Below are positions 4,858 through 64,000 of a stretch of DNA of 64,000 nucleotides, piece after piece. Position numbers and translations under genes: made by a program. The notes beneath the pieces were generated by a model. That model was not told the origin of the DNA. It ran no database searches and was given only the letters and a program-made list of their open reading frames with translations. Position 1 is the stretch's first letter; each line of letters begins with the position of its first letter. Source of the stretch: Flectonema sp. DT1601 (Eukaryota > Euglenozoa > Diplonemea > Diplonemida > Diplonemidae). Location: positions 121,001-185,000 of the forward strand of contig OZ025865.1 in assembly GCA_964019425.1 (NCBI GenBank), read 5' to 3'.

Positions 4858-6330
4858 TTCTTGTTTAGTGGGGTAAAAATAACACAAAAAGAAACAAGAG
4901 TCTGTTGGAAAATTAATTTTTATTTACAAAATATAAAAATACAAACCAACAAATCAATAACTTATCAACCCCCTTGTAAATACAACTACCTCACACGAAC
5001 AACAAAGCTTACGCTGGCTAACCAACTAGCTGCCTACTGCGTAGCTAGTTTACCAAATAAACAAATTTGTTTTACTTTTTTTTTATTCGCAACCTTCAGG
5101 AGACATAAAAGCAAAAAACTGATCCACCCAAAAGAAAATACTATACACGAAAAAAATAAATAAATGACACCTAAAGATGAATAATAAAACTAAACTATCA
5201 ACAAGACAAAGCTTTTGGTATCTCTAATGCAGGCTCTCCATACGAATTCGGTGTGGACTTTCGCAAGACATCCGAAGCTTTTGAAAACCTCTGCGACGCA
5301 GCCAGTAGAAGAAGAACCTTGCTTCCCAGAAAGAGGTTTCTACCTGTACTGCAGCAGGTATTGCAGATGTCCTCAGAAGTCATAATCAAATGTATTTTAC
5401 ATTGGTTCGACATAAAATGATTGATGTCGTAACGTAATTCTTTAATATAATTCACTTCTTTTCTTTCTTTATTTGATGTAAGTGATGTTTTTACGTTTAG
5501 TTTAGTTTAGTTAGCAAAATACAAACTGATGACTACGAGGGGTCTGGGTAGCCCGCATCAGTAAGGACCCAATCGCGAAGATTGTAGTTTCATAGTATTG
5601 GCTGGAAGTGATCGACTTCCAGCCTCCACCTTACCCAGAGGCTAACAGGTTGTAAACAACTAAAGAAAATAAAAGAGAAATGATCTGGGATTGGGGGGAA
5701 GGTGAAAAAAATAAAAAATCTTCTTTCTTTCATATAGTACAGTCAGTTTAAGGTCATAACTGCGCCGGACCAATATGTATCAAAAAAAAGGTGTGTAGGG
5801 AGAGAATAATAATTTTCTTTTTTTAAAACAATTAATTATACTGTCGACTAGAAAGAAAGGGGGTTTAATGTTTGAATTTGTTAAATACAACTGTTTGGTA
5901 TCACATTAACACAACGATAATTTATCATCTGTCAAGGATGCAGTGACGTGGTGTGATGCTTTACTTAGCCTTTTTTGAAGTAACTAGTCAGGTTTCGAAA
6001 GAAAAGAAAGAAGGGGAGTGAAAAGGGAATGTTCCAGTGTAGGTAAAAAACACTCTGCAAATGTAGTAAAAAACTCTGCATTATAAATTAAATGGTCGAA
6101 TTGAGTTTTAATTAATATCTTTTTTAAAAAAATCGTGTCACCTGAAAGAAAGCAATTCAGGTTTTCTATAACACGGCAAAGTGTTTCTCATATTACCTTC
6201 TAAAAGATTACTTCTCAATATAAACATCTTGGGATGGAAGGCAAAAAAGAAATGAAAGAAAATACACGCTGGTATAATTTGTATTTTGTGGGTAAATAAG
6301 TTTTATTTTATATATTGTCAGCTAATTGAG
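4702..6330. repeat. Tandem 2-kb repeat, copy 3 (diverged, with insertion)
   Basis: The third unit carries the non-LTR 3' end at about 4909-5455, then a 278-base SINE-like insertion (5496-5773). The remaining homology is more diverged, and the RNase H remnant is missing beyond about 6243. Confidence 0.75.
5496..5773 (-). mobile_element. SINE-like insertion with (CTAAA)n tail and 10-bp hairpin
   Basis: Comparison with the empty site in copy 2 (GATGTTTTTATGTATC near 3409-3424) shows a 278-base insertion flanked by a 4-bp duplication: TATG on the right and TACG, one mutation away, on the left. Its left end is (TTTAG)n, i.e. (CTAAA)n on the minus strand, like a retroposon 3' tail. A perfect hairpin GGCTGGAAGT/ACTTCCAGCC with a 5-base loop lies at 5600-5624. 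No ORF. Copies occur at 40577-40859 and 44697-44974. Confidence 0.6.
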
Positions 6331-58945: not shown

Positions 58946-59321
58946 TTAGAATCCAAACTCATCTTGTGTTTTGTACTTCTTCACAATGACAACAGACACA
59001 GCTGTAAGAACACCCCCAGAAAGTGATAAAACTGTAGCTCCAACATTTATATATTCTTGGTGATTGAGAACCATCGTTAAACAAGGGCCCGATATGGCGA
59101 ACATCCCCAATACGAAGTTTCCAAGTACCCGAAATCCGTTTCCTTCACCGTAGTCTGATTCTTTACCATCACATAGAAATAGTGGAAGAGGAGTAAACAG
59201 ATAAAATCCCATCATATACAATGGATGTGCGGAATGGTTGGTTGTACACGCCAAGACCTGAAGTAGAAGCGCCACTGCAACTAAAAACGCTGCTCCAAGG
59301 AGACCTTGTTGGCCGATTTCT

Positions 59322-59326
<5 letters not shown>
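58946..59326 (-). CDS. Vps55/OB-RGRP-like four-helix membrane protein (126 aa)
   Basis: Four hydrophobic segments (about 8-28, 34-52, 65-85, 93-113) with a polar loop between the second and third. The second segment PLYMMGFYLFTPLPLFLC matches the FYxLxPxPxxx signature of the Vps55/leptin receptor overlapping transcript family, which acts in endosome-to-vacuole/lysosome trafficking with Vps68. The length (126) fits the family (about 120-140). The C-terminus is charged (KKYKTQDEFGF). Ends at TAG. On the coding strand the ATG directly follows 27 consecutive A residues. Confidence 0.7.
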
Positions 59327-59359: not shown

Positions 59360-60140
59360 AATAAATAAAGAAATTCTCTCTGAGTTTATATAAAAAATAA
59401 TAAATAACTACACACACAAGCTTTTATAATATTTTTAGTGTCTTAAATACAAAAAATGATATTCGTCTGCCATGTATTATTTCATTCCCTGTTGATGTAA
59501 ATAAAATAGTTATTCTCGATTCAAATAGTCTTTTTTTTTCATTTTTTTTTTTTTTTTTTTTTTAAAAACTCTCGTCTCATCGACAACAGAAAATTATAAT
59601 AAAAAACAAGCAGCGGGTTGGGGGTTAAGTTTCGCCTTTTAGAGTCTTCCTGCGCATGAAACTCGTCAAATACGAATATAAATTTGCTACTACTCCACTA
59701 TTTTGTTGTTTTATTGTTCTTTTAACAAAGGCACTATTCCTTACCTTCCCCCCAACCGCCAGGAGCATTCACCCGAGAAAAAAAAATAATTTAAGAAAAG
59801 GGGGGGAAATAGAGAGAGAGAGAGAGAGGGGAAAAAAAAAATTGCATTTGTTGTGAGTTTTTAAAATATATCCACTTTTAGGGGGAAACAAAAAAAAAAA
59901 AATAAATAAAAATAAAGAGATTTTAATTTTCACCATGAGCACAGCTGTTGTTTATCTCGTAGGGAATGACACATTTTTTTAATAATCCAGATAAGTGAGG
60001 AACGTTATCACCTTAAAGTGCTCTATTCGCCATGAAATCCAAGCGATGAATTCATCATTTTTTATTTTTTTTTTTTCCTCTGAAAAACAGAGTATATATA
60101 TTACTGACCAATTAAAAAAGAAAAAAAAATTTAAAAAAAG
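59360..60140. other. Non-coding, start of the structured region
   Basis: AT-rich with T- and A-runs and a GA microsatellite (59812-59828). Includes the long-range stem 59613-59759. No protein gene seen; frames here are short and composed of homopolymers. Confidence 0.5.
59613..59759 (+). other. Long-range G-arm/C-arm inverted repeat
   Basis: GCGG(G)TTGGGGG at 59613-59624 pairs with CCCCCAACCGC at 59749-59759, eleven base pairs with one bulged G, enclosing 124 bases. The polarity is opposite to the eight C9 hairpins that follow. Confidence 0.45.
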
Positions 60141-60147
60141 TTAAAAA

Positions 60148-60200
60148 CCCCCCCCCTCCACCGTGACCGGCTACACGGCTCAGTCGGGTTGAGGGGGAGG
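60148..60200 (+). ncRNA. C9 hairpin 1 of the structured array
   Basis: C9 at 60148-60156. CCCCC-U-C (60152-60158) pairs with GAGGGGG (60191-60197); two outer C-G pairs follow beyond a C.A mismatch. Inner stem CCGTG/CACGG. Strand of transcription unknown; on the minus strand it is followed by T-rich tracts. Confidence 0.5.
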
Positions 60201-60707
60201 AGTGAAGCTGAGCTACTTATATATAAATTCCATACAGAGAACAACAGTAGTGCAAAAACTTTCGTCTATCTTGGTATTATTAGAATTAAATCCCCTGTCA
60301 AAAAAACAGGTCATGGAAAAATATCACACCCCGAGTGGTAACTTTTGCACAAACTTTCAATGCAATTGAAAAGAAAAAAAGATAACTTTTTTTTTTTTTT
60401 TTTTTAAAGGGAAAAAAACGATCGCTGAATAAAAAGCTAACTAATTACCCTGTCGACAAAGAGAGAGAGAGAGGAAGAGAGGAATACTAGCCTTACATGC
60501 AATGCTGTCGTCGGAAAGAAGGAAATGCAAGCAAACACCTATACGGTTTTCGGTGACCGGGGCTAGTCATTTTTTTTTTTTTTTTTTTTTTTCCATATGC
60601 AAAGCTCAGGCGCTATTTTTTTTCACTTAAAAAGGAAAATGTTACAAACGGAAAAATAAAAAAGAGTGAAGGGAAAAAAAAAAAAAAAAAAGAAAAAAAA
60701 CGGAAAT

Positions 60708-60756
60708 CCCCCCCCCACTTCCTTATCAAAAGCATTGGACTATTGATAAGTGGGGG
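60708..60756 (+). ncRNA. C9 hairpin 2
   Basis: C9 at 60708-60716. CCCCCACUU (60712-60720) pairs perfectly with AAGUGGGGG (60748-60756), then AUCAA (60725-60729) with UUGAU (60743-60747), giving 14 pairs with one 4-base bulge. Confidence 0.55.
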
Positions 60757-60780
60757 ACGGTGCTGGAAGATGTGAATCTC

Positions 60781-60936
60781 TCACTTCCGAAGTGGGACTC
60801 TTAAAAGGGGTGCTCATTGCCACACGCGTTTCCGAAACTAAGCTGTGGAGGCCCAACGGGGGATTGTTGAATCCCCCATTCGGGCCAACCTCAAAAAGAC
60901 GGTTTTTTGGCTTGCGCAAGCAGAACCTTCTTTTTT
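60781..60936 (+). ncRNA. Three further stems downstream of hairpin 2, ending in a T6 tract
   Basis: CACUU/AAGUG (60782-60794). GGCCC..GGGGGAUU/AAUCCCCC..GGGCC (60850-60886, 13 pairs, loop GTTG). AAAAAGA.GGUU/AACC.UCUUUUU (60893-60935) enclosing the palindrome GCTTGCGCAAGC (60910-60921). With hairpin 2 these give a compact four-stem ~230-base unit terminated by TTTTTT (60931-60936), as expected for an RNA polymerase III transcript. No homology recognised. Confidence 0.45.
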
Positions 60937-61286
60937 ATTATGCAATAGCTACGGAGAAAAAAAAAGACAATTCCTTATTTTTTTTTTTTTAAAGTAAAAA
61001 GAATTGAACACAGAACACTACTTCTCTCTTCATATTTTTTTTCTCCCTATTCTTTTTTTTTTTTTTGCCCCTATGGGTTTCTTTTTTTTTTTTGTCTTTC
61101 TCCTTCTCACTTTAAAAGAAAAGAAAGCACAGGCAAAAAAAAATGAAGAGGGCAGCAAATATGAGCAAAACAACAGACTACCACCTATGTAATAGTAAAA
61201 ATAGAATGTTGGCAGTATACTCACAATCAAACACGAAACATTTTCAATGAAAATAATAAAATTTTAAAAAAAAAAAAAAAAGTAAA

Positions 61287-61341
61287 CCCCCCCCCGCTAC
61301 CTTAACGAGATCTGAAATAGTACATTAAGAATTGGCGGGGG
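61287..61341 (+). ncRNA. C9 hairpin 3
   Basis: C9 at 61287-61295. CCCCCGC (61291-61297) pairs with GCGGGGG (61335-61341). Inner CUUAA (61301-61305) pairs with UUAAG (61325-61329). Carries the GCUACC motif after C9. Confidence 0.5.
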
Positions 61342-61516
61342 AAGGAGATTGAAAAAGTGGAACATATCAGAGATGGTTTCCCAACAGATCTACCAAAAGC
61401 AACTAGCCATCAGTGTGGCCAATCGCTCTTAAGATGACACTGCCTGTTGTACAAAACGTTGGAACAACCTCCTAGTCAGAATAAGAAACAAAAGAAACAG
61501 AAAATCTGTTTTCAAG

Positions 61517-61545
61517 GTTGTCTACTGTTAAACAAAGTAGACGAC
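61517..61545. ncRNA. Perfect 10-bp hairpin downstream of hairpin 3
   Basis: GUUGUCUACU pairs with AGUAGACGAC (one G-U), nine-base loop. Another short hairpin (GCATT/AATGC) lies near 61578-61591. Confidence 0.4.
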
Positions 61546-61710
61546 CCTCCAAACAGCACTATCTAGAAAACGCTGCTTGCATTTTTTAATGCTCGCAACC
61601 CAAAACATTTATTGAAAAAAAAAAAAAAAAAAAAAATCAAAAAAAAAAAAAAAGTTAGTAAAAGGAAAAAAAAAAAGGTTAAATTGGCTTAAGCCGAAAA
61701 AAAATTCGAA

Positions 61711-61765
61711 CCCCCCCCCGCTACCTATACAGTAAGCAATAAATGCTCACTGCTAGTGACGGGGG
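61711..61765 (+). ncRNA. C9 hairpin 4
   Basis: C9 at 61711-61719. CCCCCG (61715-61720) pairs with CGGGGG (61760-61765), UAC (61722-61724) with GUG (61756-61758) across a C.A mismatch. Inner CAGU/ACUG (61730-61733, 61749-61752) and GCA/UGC complete a long helix. Confidence 0.55.
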
Positions 61766-61774
61766 AGGGGTGAG

Positions 61775-61882
61775 GATACAAAATGGTTTGTATCATAAAC
61801 ATGAAACATGTCGTGAACATACGTAACTTTTCACAAATTAATAAAAACAAAAACAATTTTATTGAATTGACATAACAGTCAA
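61775..61882. ncRNA. Two perfect hairpins following hairpin 4
   Basis: GATACAAA/TTTGTATC with a 4-base loop (61775-61794) and TTGAC/GTCAA (61867-61882), then a T-run at 61895-61911. This again looks like a structured transcript followed by a T-tract. Confidence 0.4.
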
Positions 61883-62231
61883 TAACCAACATTTCTTTTT
61901 TTTTTTTTTTTTCGTAGCAAAAAGAAGACACGGCAAACGACCTAACTTCAAAAAAATCAAATAAAATGAAATAAATTCATTTAATGTTACCAGAAGTTAA
62001 CGTCCTTTACCCAGCGCCTTCTTTTTTTTTGTTTGTTGAAAATACCAAAGGGAAAAGATACGGAGAATAACCAATAATTACAAAAACAGTAATTTTGTTT
62101 CTCGCTAACCTAAACAGTTTTTTGACAACAACGAACGAAGACACACACAACATCACTAACGAGAAAAGAAATAAAAAAAAAAATCTCAGAAAGATGTCTA
62201 GGGTAGATAAACCTCACTTCATAAACTAGTA

Positions 62232-62437
62232 GAGGAGGCTCATACCTCCTCCTCCTCTTCTTTTTTTTTTTTTTTTTTTTTCAGAAGAGAGGTTAACGAA
62301 AGGTAAAATAGAGTTAGTATTCCACCTTCGCTCCTACCGCAAACACGATACTTGAGAACAAACTCACTTTAAATAGAAAACAGAAATGCTTGGAACTAAC
62401 TTCACTACTTCAAAAAGGCTGCATTAGATTTGCAGCC
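62232..62437. ncRNA. Further hairpins between C9 elements 4 and 5
   Basis: GAGGAGG/CCTCCTC (62232-62251) followed by a T-run, and GGCTGCA/TGCAGCC (62417-62437) followed by A9. No C9 tract is attached to either. Confidence 0.4.
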
Positions 62438-62506
62438 AAAAAAAAAGGAGTTCAATTTTTTTTTGGTTTATTTTTTTCGTAGTCCCTTGTGGCTATTTTC
62501 AGTAGT

Positions 62507-62540
<34 letters not shown>

Positions 62541-62547
62541 ATTTTTT

Positions 62548-62598
62548 CCCCCCCCCGCTACCATAAGCAAGAACGAATTCCCACATAAGTGACGGGGG
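62548..62598 (+). ncRNA. C9 hairpin 5
   Basis: C9 at 62548-62556. CCCCCG pairs with CGGGGG (62593-62598), UAC (62559-62561) with GUG (62589-62591), with the same C.A mismatch as hairpins 4 and 7. Confidence 0.55.
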
Positions 62599-62807
62599 AG
62601 GGTAAGCATGAGTACATAGCAATTCATCAAGAGTTTGACTACACAGTACATGAACAGTGCAGCATCACACAAGGAACCACATGTAAATCACAACCACACC
62701 CGCAAAACAAGTTCCATCCTGACTCACAGAAAAAAATCAGACCGATTTCAGTGAAAGAGAAGAAACTAAATAACAAATAAAAGAAATAAAAATAAAAAAT
62801 GAAAAAA

Positions 62808-62866
62808 CCCCCCCCCTCCTTTCTGCAAAAACAGGTTTAAAACCCTTTTTGAGAACGAGGGTGGGG
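62808..62866 (+). ncRNA. C9 hairpin 6
   Basis: C9 at 62808-62816. CCCCCCCCUC (62809-62818) pairs with GAGGGUGGGG (62857-62866) with one C.U mismatch. UC follows C9, as in hairpins 1 and 8. Confidence 0.5.
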
Positions 62867-63088
62867 ATGAGGATGGAAGTTAGGGTGCGAGGTAAAAAAC
62901 ACACCTTCGTCTTTTAAAATATAACCTGTTAAGGTTGAGACTTTTTTTTTATTTATATATAATGTTGTTTTTTTTTTTCGTCTTACTCTTACTGCTAAAA
63001 GCTTAAAACGAAAACCTCACAAATGTCCATTCTAACGAACAAGAAAAGGTTTCTTTTTTTTTTTCTTTTTTTTTTTAGAAATATTTTT

Positions 63089-63149
63089 CCCCCCCCCGCT
63101 ACCCTTTGCAAAGTCAAATAAATGACATTTGGAAAGTGACGGGAGGGGG
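63089..63149 (+). ncRNA. C9 hairpin 7
   Basis: C9 at 63089-63097, exactly spanning the outer pairs CCCCC/GGGGG (63145-63149), a C.A mismatch and CCCG/CGGG. UAC/GUG (63100-63102, 63136-63138), then inner CAAA/UUUG and GUCA/UGAC. The longest helix of the family. Confidence 0.55.
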
Positions 63150-63265
63150 TGGATGGTTTGAGAAGGAAAAAAAAAAAAAAAAAAAAAATTCATTCTAGTG
63201 CATAAGAAAATGAAAATGCATAAGAAAATTATGGTGAGAAAAAAAATAAAAAGATACAAAAAAAA

Positions 63266-63299
63266 CCCCCCCCCTCAACTAGAAAAGTTGGGGAGGGGG
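63266..63299 (+). ncRNA. C9 hairpin 8
   Basis: C9 at 63266-63274. CCCCC/GGGGG, C.A mismatch, CC/GG, U.G, then CAACU/AGUUG (63276-63280, 63286-63290) with a 5-base loop. The most compact member. On the minus strand it is immediately followed by T9. Confidence 0.55.
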
Positions 63300-63321
63300 A
63301 GCGGAATGGTACAGGCTTGCT

Positions 63322-63356
63322 CATCTACATACCGCATGGGTGCGCATATGGAGATG
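63322..63356. ncRNA. Long imperfect hairpin after C9 hairpin 8
   Basis: CATCT/AGATG, CATA/TATG and CGCA/TGCG with loop TGGG form a continuous helix with small internal loops. A T-run follows at 63440-63458 on the plus strand. Confidence 0.4.
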
Positions 63357-63586
63357 ACCAGTCTCTACTTAACAAAATTAATTCCCATTTAGGAAACCAA
63401 CGTCCGTTCATAGCATACGCAAAACGACCGATTTTTCTTCTTTTTTTTTTTTTTTTTTAGTTCTTTCTTACTAATTCAGTTTAGTATATTTATATAATGC
63501 TTTTTTTTTTGTTTTTGTTTTTTTAAATCTCTCAGCGTAGAAGGTAATATTGGATTTCAAGGTATTTTGGGGAAAAAGTTTTTGTT

Positions 63587-63619
63587 CACCGCGAGCAGAG
63601 ACGTACTCTGCTCGTGGTG
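63587..63619. other. Strong 13-bp hairpin near the right edge
   Basis: CACC.CGAGCAGAG (63587-63600) pairs with CTCTGCTCG.GGTG (63606-63619) around loop ACGTA. It lacks a C9 tract. The surrounding 63360-64000 is T-run-rich DNA with no gene. Confidence 0.45.
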
Positions 63620-64000
63620 CTCATGTGAATTAAATTTATTTAGGAGGGGGGTACTCTGCAGTAAGTGTTAGTGAGGTAGTTAGTAATTTTTTGAAAAAAT
63701 ATAAAATCACCTTCTACGCTTATTAAAAGGATGTTAATAAGTTTTTTTTCCTTCTTTTTTTTTTTTTTTTTTTTTTTGTCTCTCTTTTTTTTCCAAACGA
63801 TGTTGCCAGTAGAGTAACAGTTGTAATTTTCTGACATATTCTATTTGTGTAATTTTAATATTAGTGATGACAAAAAAAAAATTTTTTTTTTATTAATTTT
63901 CTGTCTGCTGTATTTCTCAAAAATTTTCGTTCCGTTTTATTCATTTTTCTTTTTTTTTTTTTTTTTGTATGTGCATCATTTTTTTGGGCTTTTAATTTGT

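Follow-up and report, generated by a model that had tools for sequence, protein, structure and literature searches.

The stretch of DNA described here, referred to as the window, is 64 kb in length and corresponds to positions 121001-185000 of contig C86 in the 89.5-Mb genome (92 contigs) of the diplonemid Flectonema sp. DT1601. Within it, at 60148..63299, there is an array of eight hairpins, each of which is opened on the plus strand by a tract of exactly nine cytosines (C9) and closed by a G-rich arm. Read in the minus sense, an element comprises a C/U-rich arm, a partly paired loop that varies between elements, and an arm of nine guanines (G9). The array resides in a gene-free stretch, with no ATG-started frame of at least 100 amino acids between 59.4 and 64.0 kb. 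The next gene downstream in the minus sense encodes a Vps55 family protein of 126 amino acids (58946..59326, minus strand) and is located 0.82 kb past the first hairpin, e1.

The hairpins are designated e1 to e8 and are given here in their minus-strand form. Hairpin e1 (60148..60204) consists of a C/T-rich arm, a loop and the G9 arm, which is directly followed by a T-rich tract with T5, T7 and T9 (60118..60147). In e2 (60708..60763) an A-T pair lies beside the G9 and the inner stem is 6 bp long; the tract behind it (60674..60707) has T8 at +7 and then T18. Four elements form a subfamily in which GCTACC directly follows the C9 (GGTAGC before the G9 on the minus strand), namely e3 (61287..61347), e4 (61711..61771), e5 (62548..62604) and e7 (63089..63151). 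The first three of these are followed by T16 at +5 (61266..61286), T8 at +6 (61697..61710) and T30 at +10 (62508..62547), respectively, with e4 being the most stable hairpin of the array at -41.6 kcal/mol. The fourth, e7, is the sole element that has A-tracts and no T-tract behind it. A single A stands opposite the G9 in e6 (62808..62870), where T6 occurs at 0 and again at +8 (62794..62807). The shortest of the eight is e8 (63266..63302), which comprises 37 nucleotides with a 5-nucleotide loop, and its G9 adjoins a T8 run (63258..63265). The sequence CCCCCCCCCGCTACC has four copies in the genome, all of which lie inside the array.

The position, length and orientation of the C9 tracts and the presence of a downstream G-rich arm had been described in the original prediction, and both tracts and hairpins were reproduced here. 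It had also been argued that a fixed C9 is unlikely to reflect drift, and the genome counts bear this out. Exact C9 runs number 508 on the plus strand and 561 on the minus strand, which corresponds to an expectation of approximately 0.018 per 3.1 kb of one strand; an array of eight in that span greatly exceeds chance. Out of 19 C8 matches in the window, 16 come from the eight tracts (shuffled sequences: mean 0.35, maximum 3), and every other C or G run of at least six there is shorter than nine. On the plus strand of the genome the 508 exact runs compare with 3572 C9 windows, most of which therefore sit in longer runs; runs fixed at nine are thus not what this genome shows by default.

Apart from the tracts, positions 59700-63400 contain as C or G runs of at least five only the G5 arms, one G5, one pair of G5 and C5, and a run each of six and seven at 59748 and 59800. 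The run lengths were thus not selected to be nine. A weak look-alike hairpin at 59748-59806 has C6 and G7 runs on the plus strand and no T's after it on the minus strand. Variation in C9 length had been put forward as a sign that would speak against the array. There is none within it, and a single C10 occurs among the three hairpins of a second cluster on contig C30; "exactly nine" is thus strict in this array and not absolute.

Strand sense, pairing and T-tracts

All eight hairpins fold more strongly on the minus strand than on the plus strand, with minus-strand energies of -25.5 to -41.6 kcal/mol. The plus-strand z-score is -0.22 for e6 and approximately -2 for four others. Part of the minus advantage is due to the T's in the C arm. 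Across eleven elements (the eight of the array and f1 to f3 of the second cluster), the letters opposite the G-run in the best-fitting register are 76 C, 21 T, 1 A and 1 G of 99; this register was fitted by script and differs for f2 from the minimum-energy fold, where an A stands in that place. Interruptions of the C arm are nearly all C to U, and pairing with G is maintained as a G-U wobble on the minus strand. All eleven elements have an intact G run (nine or ten), a figure that is partly ascertainment, and the opposite nine letters are interrupted in all eleven. A change of C to U on the C arm keeps the pairing while the G arm stays unchanged, possibly because a change of G to A would break the pair. 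This asymmetry leaves the exact length of nine unexplained.

Pairing extends beyond the G9. The pair next to it in e1 to e7 is T-A, A-T or G-C, and the inner pairs co-vary: when the inner 3′ arms of the eleven elements were reshuffled and the register was re-chosen, the observed pairing was reached in 1 of 4000 cases. The same exchange gave 53 of 4000 for the eight window elements alone, and 6 of 4000 for a set of one GCTACC member and seven others. Against mononucleotide shuffles the apical loops give a mixed picture: those of e2, e4 and e8 are more stably folded (at most 0.7%), e6 and e7 are borderline (5% and 7%), and e1, e3, e5 and f1 to f3 do not stand out. The basal arms are alike while the loops are too diverged to align, even within the GCTACC subfamily.

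Unusual folding is found in 11 of 77 folding windows of the array in the sense direction and in 9 of 77 in the antisense direction, compared with 2 of 25 at the second cluster. Among six control stretches, read in sense, the figures range from 0 of 32 and 0 of 62 up to 6 of 76. Both strands of the array thus show more folding than usual, which is hardly the case at C30. The stretches between the hairpins are also structured; positions 60840-60949 have z-scores of -5.5 on the minus strand and -4.1 on the plus strand, and 61480-61589 is the stronger on the plus strand (-5.7 vs -3.4 on minus). A long hairpin with G-U pairs on the minus strand resides between e4 and e5 (approximately 61914-62022, -41 kcal/mol). 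The folding window that covers it, 61920-62029, has z-scores of -8.4 (minus) and -4.8 (plus), and this hairpin has no Rfam match at gathering score.

On the minus strand, a T-run of at least six begins no more than 10 nucleotides past the G9 in seven of the eight hairpins, against a background of 0.111. The binomial P of 1.5e-6 is only a guide, as the cut-offs were set after inspection. An A-run occupies the same position in one of eight, and a T-run stands just ahead of the hairpin in none. The 40 nucleotides after the G9 contain 25.9 T on average, compared with 14.7. This one-sided order of hairpin and then T-tract on the minus strand is how a hairpin plus T-tract terminator is built, and it is hidden when the array is read on the plus strand.

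A second cluster and the genome inventory

Three similar hairpins, f1 to f3 (C9, C10 and C9), are located at C30:1050717-1051268 with the C-strand being the minus strand. All three fold better in gene sense. The ATG-started frames of at least 150 amino acids around them are all on the plus strand (33.7 kb of C30), those with recognised families including KRR1, a racemase, WD40 and a lipase. The sense reading is the direction of the recognised host genes in both clusters. The G-runs of C30 lie in gene sense within a gene-poor stretch, approximately 0.8 kb ahead of the next frame. C-rich blocks precede these hairpins, and an additional C9 on the same strand, 4.6 kb from the cluster, forms a weak hairpin only. 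Together with e8, f1 to f3 are the small elements, with sizes of 36-47 nucleotides. It had been expected that further copies would be present at gene-cluster boundaries; this held once, with the three copies on C30, which do not lie at a strand switch, and it is not general.

The genome inventory consists of pattern searches, with forward and reverse counts set against a reversed-pattern control. The pattern C9..GGGWGGGG occurs at four places, the three on C30 and e8 (control 4), and C9..GGGGGAGG at six, of which three are in the array and one is on C30 (control 8). The looser C8..GGGWGGG gave 20 rows against 117 in the control, and of its nine places outside both clusters none is near another. 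C9-A-not-A..G5 is found at eight places including e2 and one on C30 (10 matches vs control 20). C9-K..G5 gave 121 matches against 364, and the 100 of these that were listed, which reach up to contig C65, hold no cluster save a dispersed repeat. A further C/G-run pattern gave 508 matches against 275, and mostly represents the same dispersed repeat among the 100 matches listed. Whole-pattern counts are therefore mostly not above their controls; it is the clustering and the match to the hairpin that stand out. No third cluster was found among the matches listed, in a search that was not exhaustive and that a small cluster could escape.

A covariance model was run over 265,173 bases of chosen loci, many of which had been chosen for their C/G runs. 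The eleven members scored 33-53 bits, values that are high by construction, and nothing else exceeded 26.0. There is no second copy of the 3.3-kb stretch; the only long one among 83 genome matches listed is the stretch itself, the others lying over A- or T-rich tracts. The dispersed repeat mentioned above is palindromic, has the core C9-11 AA C8 AA G8 A, and lies beside CTTGGCGGAACGCAAG at locus L042 (2000-3150), where it resembles a mobile-element terminus.

Host genes around the array

The host frames with a Pfam family on C86, among those scanned, are on the minus strand on both sides of the array. Within the window they include Vps55, ubiquitin-like, BspA-like leucine-rich repeat (LRR) and GH116/PAN genes. 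To the right of the array they comprise a radial-spoke-like protein, parts of DnaJ and NAA15, an exonuclease, ankyrin, PPPDE, a kinase and others. Among the frames tested on C86, a single one on the plus strand has a family. It is a mobile gene, a DDE transposase (Pfam DDE_Tnp_1_7; L015 8655-10001), approximately 29 kb to the right of the window; four other plus-strand frames of at least 150 amino acids that were tested on this contig have no family. Because the recognised host genes on both flanks run minus, no strand switch coincides with the array. Among the three options offered in the original prediction, a transcription boundary is accordingly not supported in the form of a strand switch. 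Minus-strand terminators fare best, because all eight hairpins are more stable on that strand, the interruptions are G-U wobbles, and T-tracts follow seven of the eight.

Other features of the surroundings were recorded. A near-perfect 14-bp hairpin, CACCGCGAGCAGAG/CTCTGCTCGTGGTG, is found at the right-hand border of the gene-free region (window approximately 63588-63620) and is better paired on the plus strand. Tandem genes of approximately 967 amino acids are present on the minus strand at 17491-37974 of the window, with BspA-like LRR genes around them. Both of those tested contain PAN and GH116 by Pfam, and a shorter frame represents the GH116 catalytic part. Near the array, an intron of NAA15 (L014 approximately 6014-6146, minus) has a poly(A) tract before its CAG 3′ splice site. 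By frame it starts with GCATGT (GC-AG) and ends with ACACAG, without paired C/G ends. A poly(A) tract ahead of the 3′ end of introns is described for Diplonema japonicum in part of PMC12621601.

The genome carries a kinetoplastid/diplonemid spliced-leader (SL) core at 729 places against 2 in the reversed control. Among the 100 of these 729 that were listed, many copies are in tandem arrays of approximately 610-623 bp. The unit inspected contains AACCAACGATTCTAAAGCTACAGTTTCTGTACTTTATTG followed by GT as well as a 5S ribosomal RNA (rRNA) gene; SL RNA and 5S rRNA genes thus share one tandem unit of approximately 623 bp (L044, C16:1432300-1433400). A spliced leader with AACCAACGATTCTAAAGCTACAGTTTCTGTACTTTATTG is taken here to be of the diplonemid type. 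The genes of Diplonema papillatum are arranged in long same-direction runs that are likely co-transcribed, according to part of PMC10161547.

Possible roles of the hairpin array

The array is real, statistically strong and unusual; its anatomy is of a known kind, and no description of it in this setting and form was found in the open-access literature searched. Minus-strand transcription at the array is inferred from the sequence features described above, as are termination there and the type of polymerase. The elements may, tentatively, be stem-loops of a minus-strand RNA and serve as 3′-end signals of the hairpin plus T-tract type, a reading that falls somewhat short of an even chance. The C/U-rich arm and the G9 arm of the nascent minus-strand transcript would fold into a stable stem. 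The U-run no more than 10 nucleotides past this stem, present in seven of the eight, could then induce the polymerase to pause and release, or could set the 3′ end of a small RNA. The tandem row would either function as a fail-safe terminator island within genes of the same direction, or supply the 3′ ends for a number of short non-coding RNA genes. A more specific version is a nuclear terminator island, in which a eukaryote employs bacterial-style intrinsic terminators with a fixed nine-G arm, in a row inside co-directional genes (or ending a small-RNA family) at few places in its genome. This version is rather unlikely as it stands.

Classical intrinsic terminators consist of a G+C-rich hairpin with T's after it. 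The array resembles such bacterial terminators, and those of RNA polymerase III (Pol III) as described in part of PMC9278858, in its G+C-rich hairpin, its G-rich 3′ arm and the sense T-run at 0-10 nucleotides in seven of eight. It is unlike them in being eukaryotic and nuclear, in having eight elements over 3.2 kb with a homopolymeric arm of nine and often long loops, and in that two clusters were seen. In yeast, the same partial source reports that an RNA hairpin at the T-tract or 7 nucleotides before it enhances Pol III release, and that this aid is seen at a weak T4 and a long T12, and neither at T6 nor from a distance of 18 nucleotides (PMC9278858). RNA polymerase II (Pol II) is able to stop at T-tracts in vitro (PMC7615648, in part), and termination by RNA polymerase I (Pol I) requires a hairpin (PMC12366685, in part). 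The array shares a hairpin and T-rich sequence with the Pol I terminators of the latter source and differs in that the window has no rRNA gene at Rfam gathering scores.

A comparison within the same genome is also available. The U1, U5 and 5S genes have a stem at or near their end and T4-T9 within 0-4 nucleotides, as judged by eye, with only U1 folded and no chance control; a T7 is present at the SL RNA gene as well. Unlike the array, the end stems of U1, U5 and 5S lack a G9. The B-box promoter element of Pol III genes has a GGTTCGANTCC-like consensus. U1 and U5 each have a B-box-like site upstream with one mismatch, and the array has no such site. These two small nuclear RNA (snRNA) genes are approximately 0.8 kb apart on contig C11 (L063), each with the B-box-like AGTTCGATTCC approximately 86-89 nucleotides upstream, start to start.

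Several observations weigh against a role as 3′-end signals. A T-run is absent at e7 and at two of the three hairpins on C30. When the region was scanned for generic terminators, 5 sites emerged compared with 4.0 in shuffles, one of them inside e5 and none equal to a whole element; its loop limit of 8 nucleotides excludes most elements. The elements were located through their C9, so that relatives with a broken run would escape and the unbroken G9 is in part a product of ascertainment. No B-box was found in the stretch bar one match with two mismatches at the edge of e4, so that no Pol III genes of the U1 and U5 kind are seen there; five A-box matches with two mismatches carry no clear weight. 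The protein genes here are presumably transcribed by Pol II, and a hairpin plus T-tract gave poor Pol II release in yeast, as reported in part of PMC9278858. The form was seen in two clusters only and is thus not a general terminator of the gene runs of this genome. The strong structure between the hairpins fits RNA processing as well.

In such a processing scheme, an RNase III-type nuclease or an RNA-binding protein would recognise the C/U-G9 stem in a long non-coding precursor and cut out or protect small RNAs, the T-tracts being incidental to an AT-rich stretch. Polycistronic small nucleolar RNA clusters provide a precedent, and the folded stretches between the hairpins, together with basal arms that are kept while loops differ (GCTACC subfamily included), would agree with it. 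The flanks share little beyond T-tracts, which indicates that the hairpin itself is the kept unit. It is nonetheless an unlikely explanation: the placement of the T-tracts is far from chance, no Rfam family reaches gathering score in the window, and a single C-box-like RTGATGA occurs on the minus strand in 4.3 kb, outside the hairpins. Hairpins of 36-47 nucleotides, as in the second cluster, are also short for H/ACA or Dicer-type substrates.

Known RNAs were considered and rejected. The 64 kb contain no Rfam match at gathering score, all 34 matches in 59.4-64.0 kb lie below their gathering scores, and the C30 loci L052 and L061 have no Rfam match at that score. Transfer RNA genes were ruled out for the array. 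MicroRNA precursors were rejected on the size of e8 and f1 to f3 and on family matches far under gathering scores, and B-box promoters on the lone match given above. A U1 snRNA variant with a 5′ C stretch, as reported for S. specki, is not supported, as the window has no U1; there are four U1 matches elsewhere in the genome, and the two that were read start with ACATACCTG. Base-pairing with SL RNA or U1 was discarded, exact complements being at most 10 nucleotides long.

An element acting at the DNA level is quite improbable. The C9/G9 palindromes would then be a cluster of binding sites, or cruciform or G-rich sites, which might mark transcription start or chromatin, with RNA folding as a by-product. 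The contrast between an unbroken G run and an interrupted opposite arm could be understood in this way, as could the C-rich blocks ahead of the C30 hairpins. The C-to-T bias of the interruptions is, however, that expected for wobble pairing in a minus-strand RNA, and neither the compensating inner pairs nor the one-sided T-tract would be anticipated from a DNA site.

Local duplication of one hairpin into non-functional copies, whose fixed length would reflect a recent origin, is decidedly improbable. It would account for the GCTACC common to four elements and for the grouping of elements at two places only, among the matches listed. The loops are unalignable while the arms are alike, and nearby A and T homopolymers vary in length. 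In the flank comparison, strong matches represent overlapping DNA; the remainder is limited to tracts rich in T and to brief segments, of which the longest non-T match spans 16 nucleotides (e1/e4, E 0.15) and is the best, and an insertion with shared flanks was rejected on the same grounds. The T-tract and pairing statistics also argue against duplication.

Membership in the dispersed C/G-run repeat, or origin as noncanonical introns with paired ends, is very improbable indeed: both have pairing C/G-rich parts, in the introns of hemistasiid diplonemids as mutually pairing ends (PMC12621601, in part), yet the element model gives the repeat no more than 19.3 bits, against 33-53 for members, and the inner sequence of the repeat is different, the elements lie outside protein genes and interrupt no ATG-started frame of at least 100 amino acids, and the NAA15 intron inspected nearby has no such ends.

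To our knowledge, it is an open question where and by what means diplonemid transcription starts and ends along the long runs of co-directional genes. Whether RNA hairpins help eukaryotic polymerases to stop is likewise disputed, the strict model being termed "highly controversial" in part of PMC9278858. Eight hairpin plus T-tract elements that occur naturally in a row and have one arm invariant would make both questions directly testable. If the elements end small RNAs instead, they would represent a family of RNA genes absent from Rfam.

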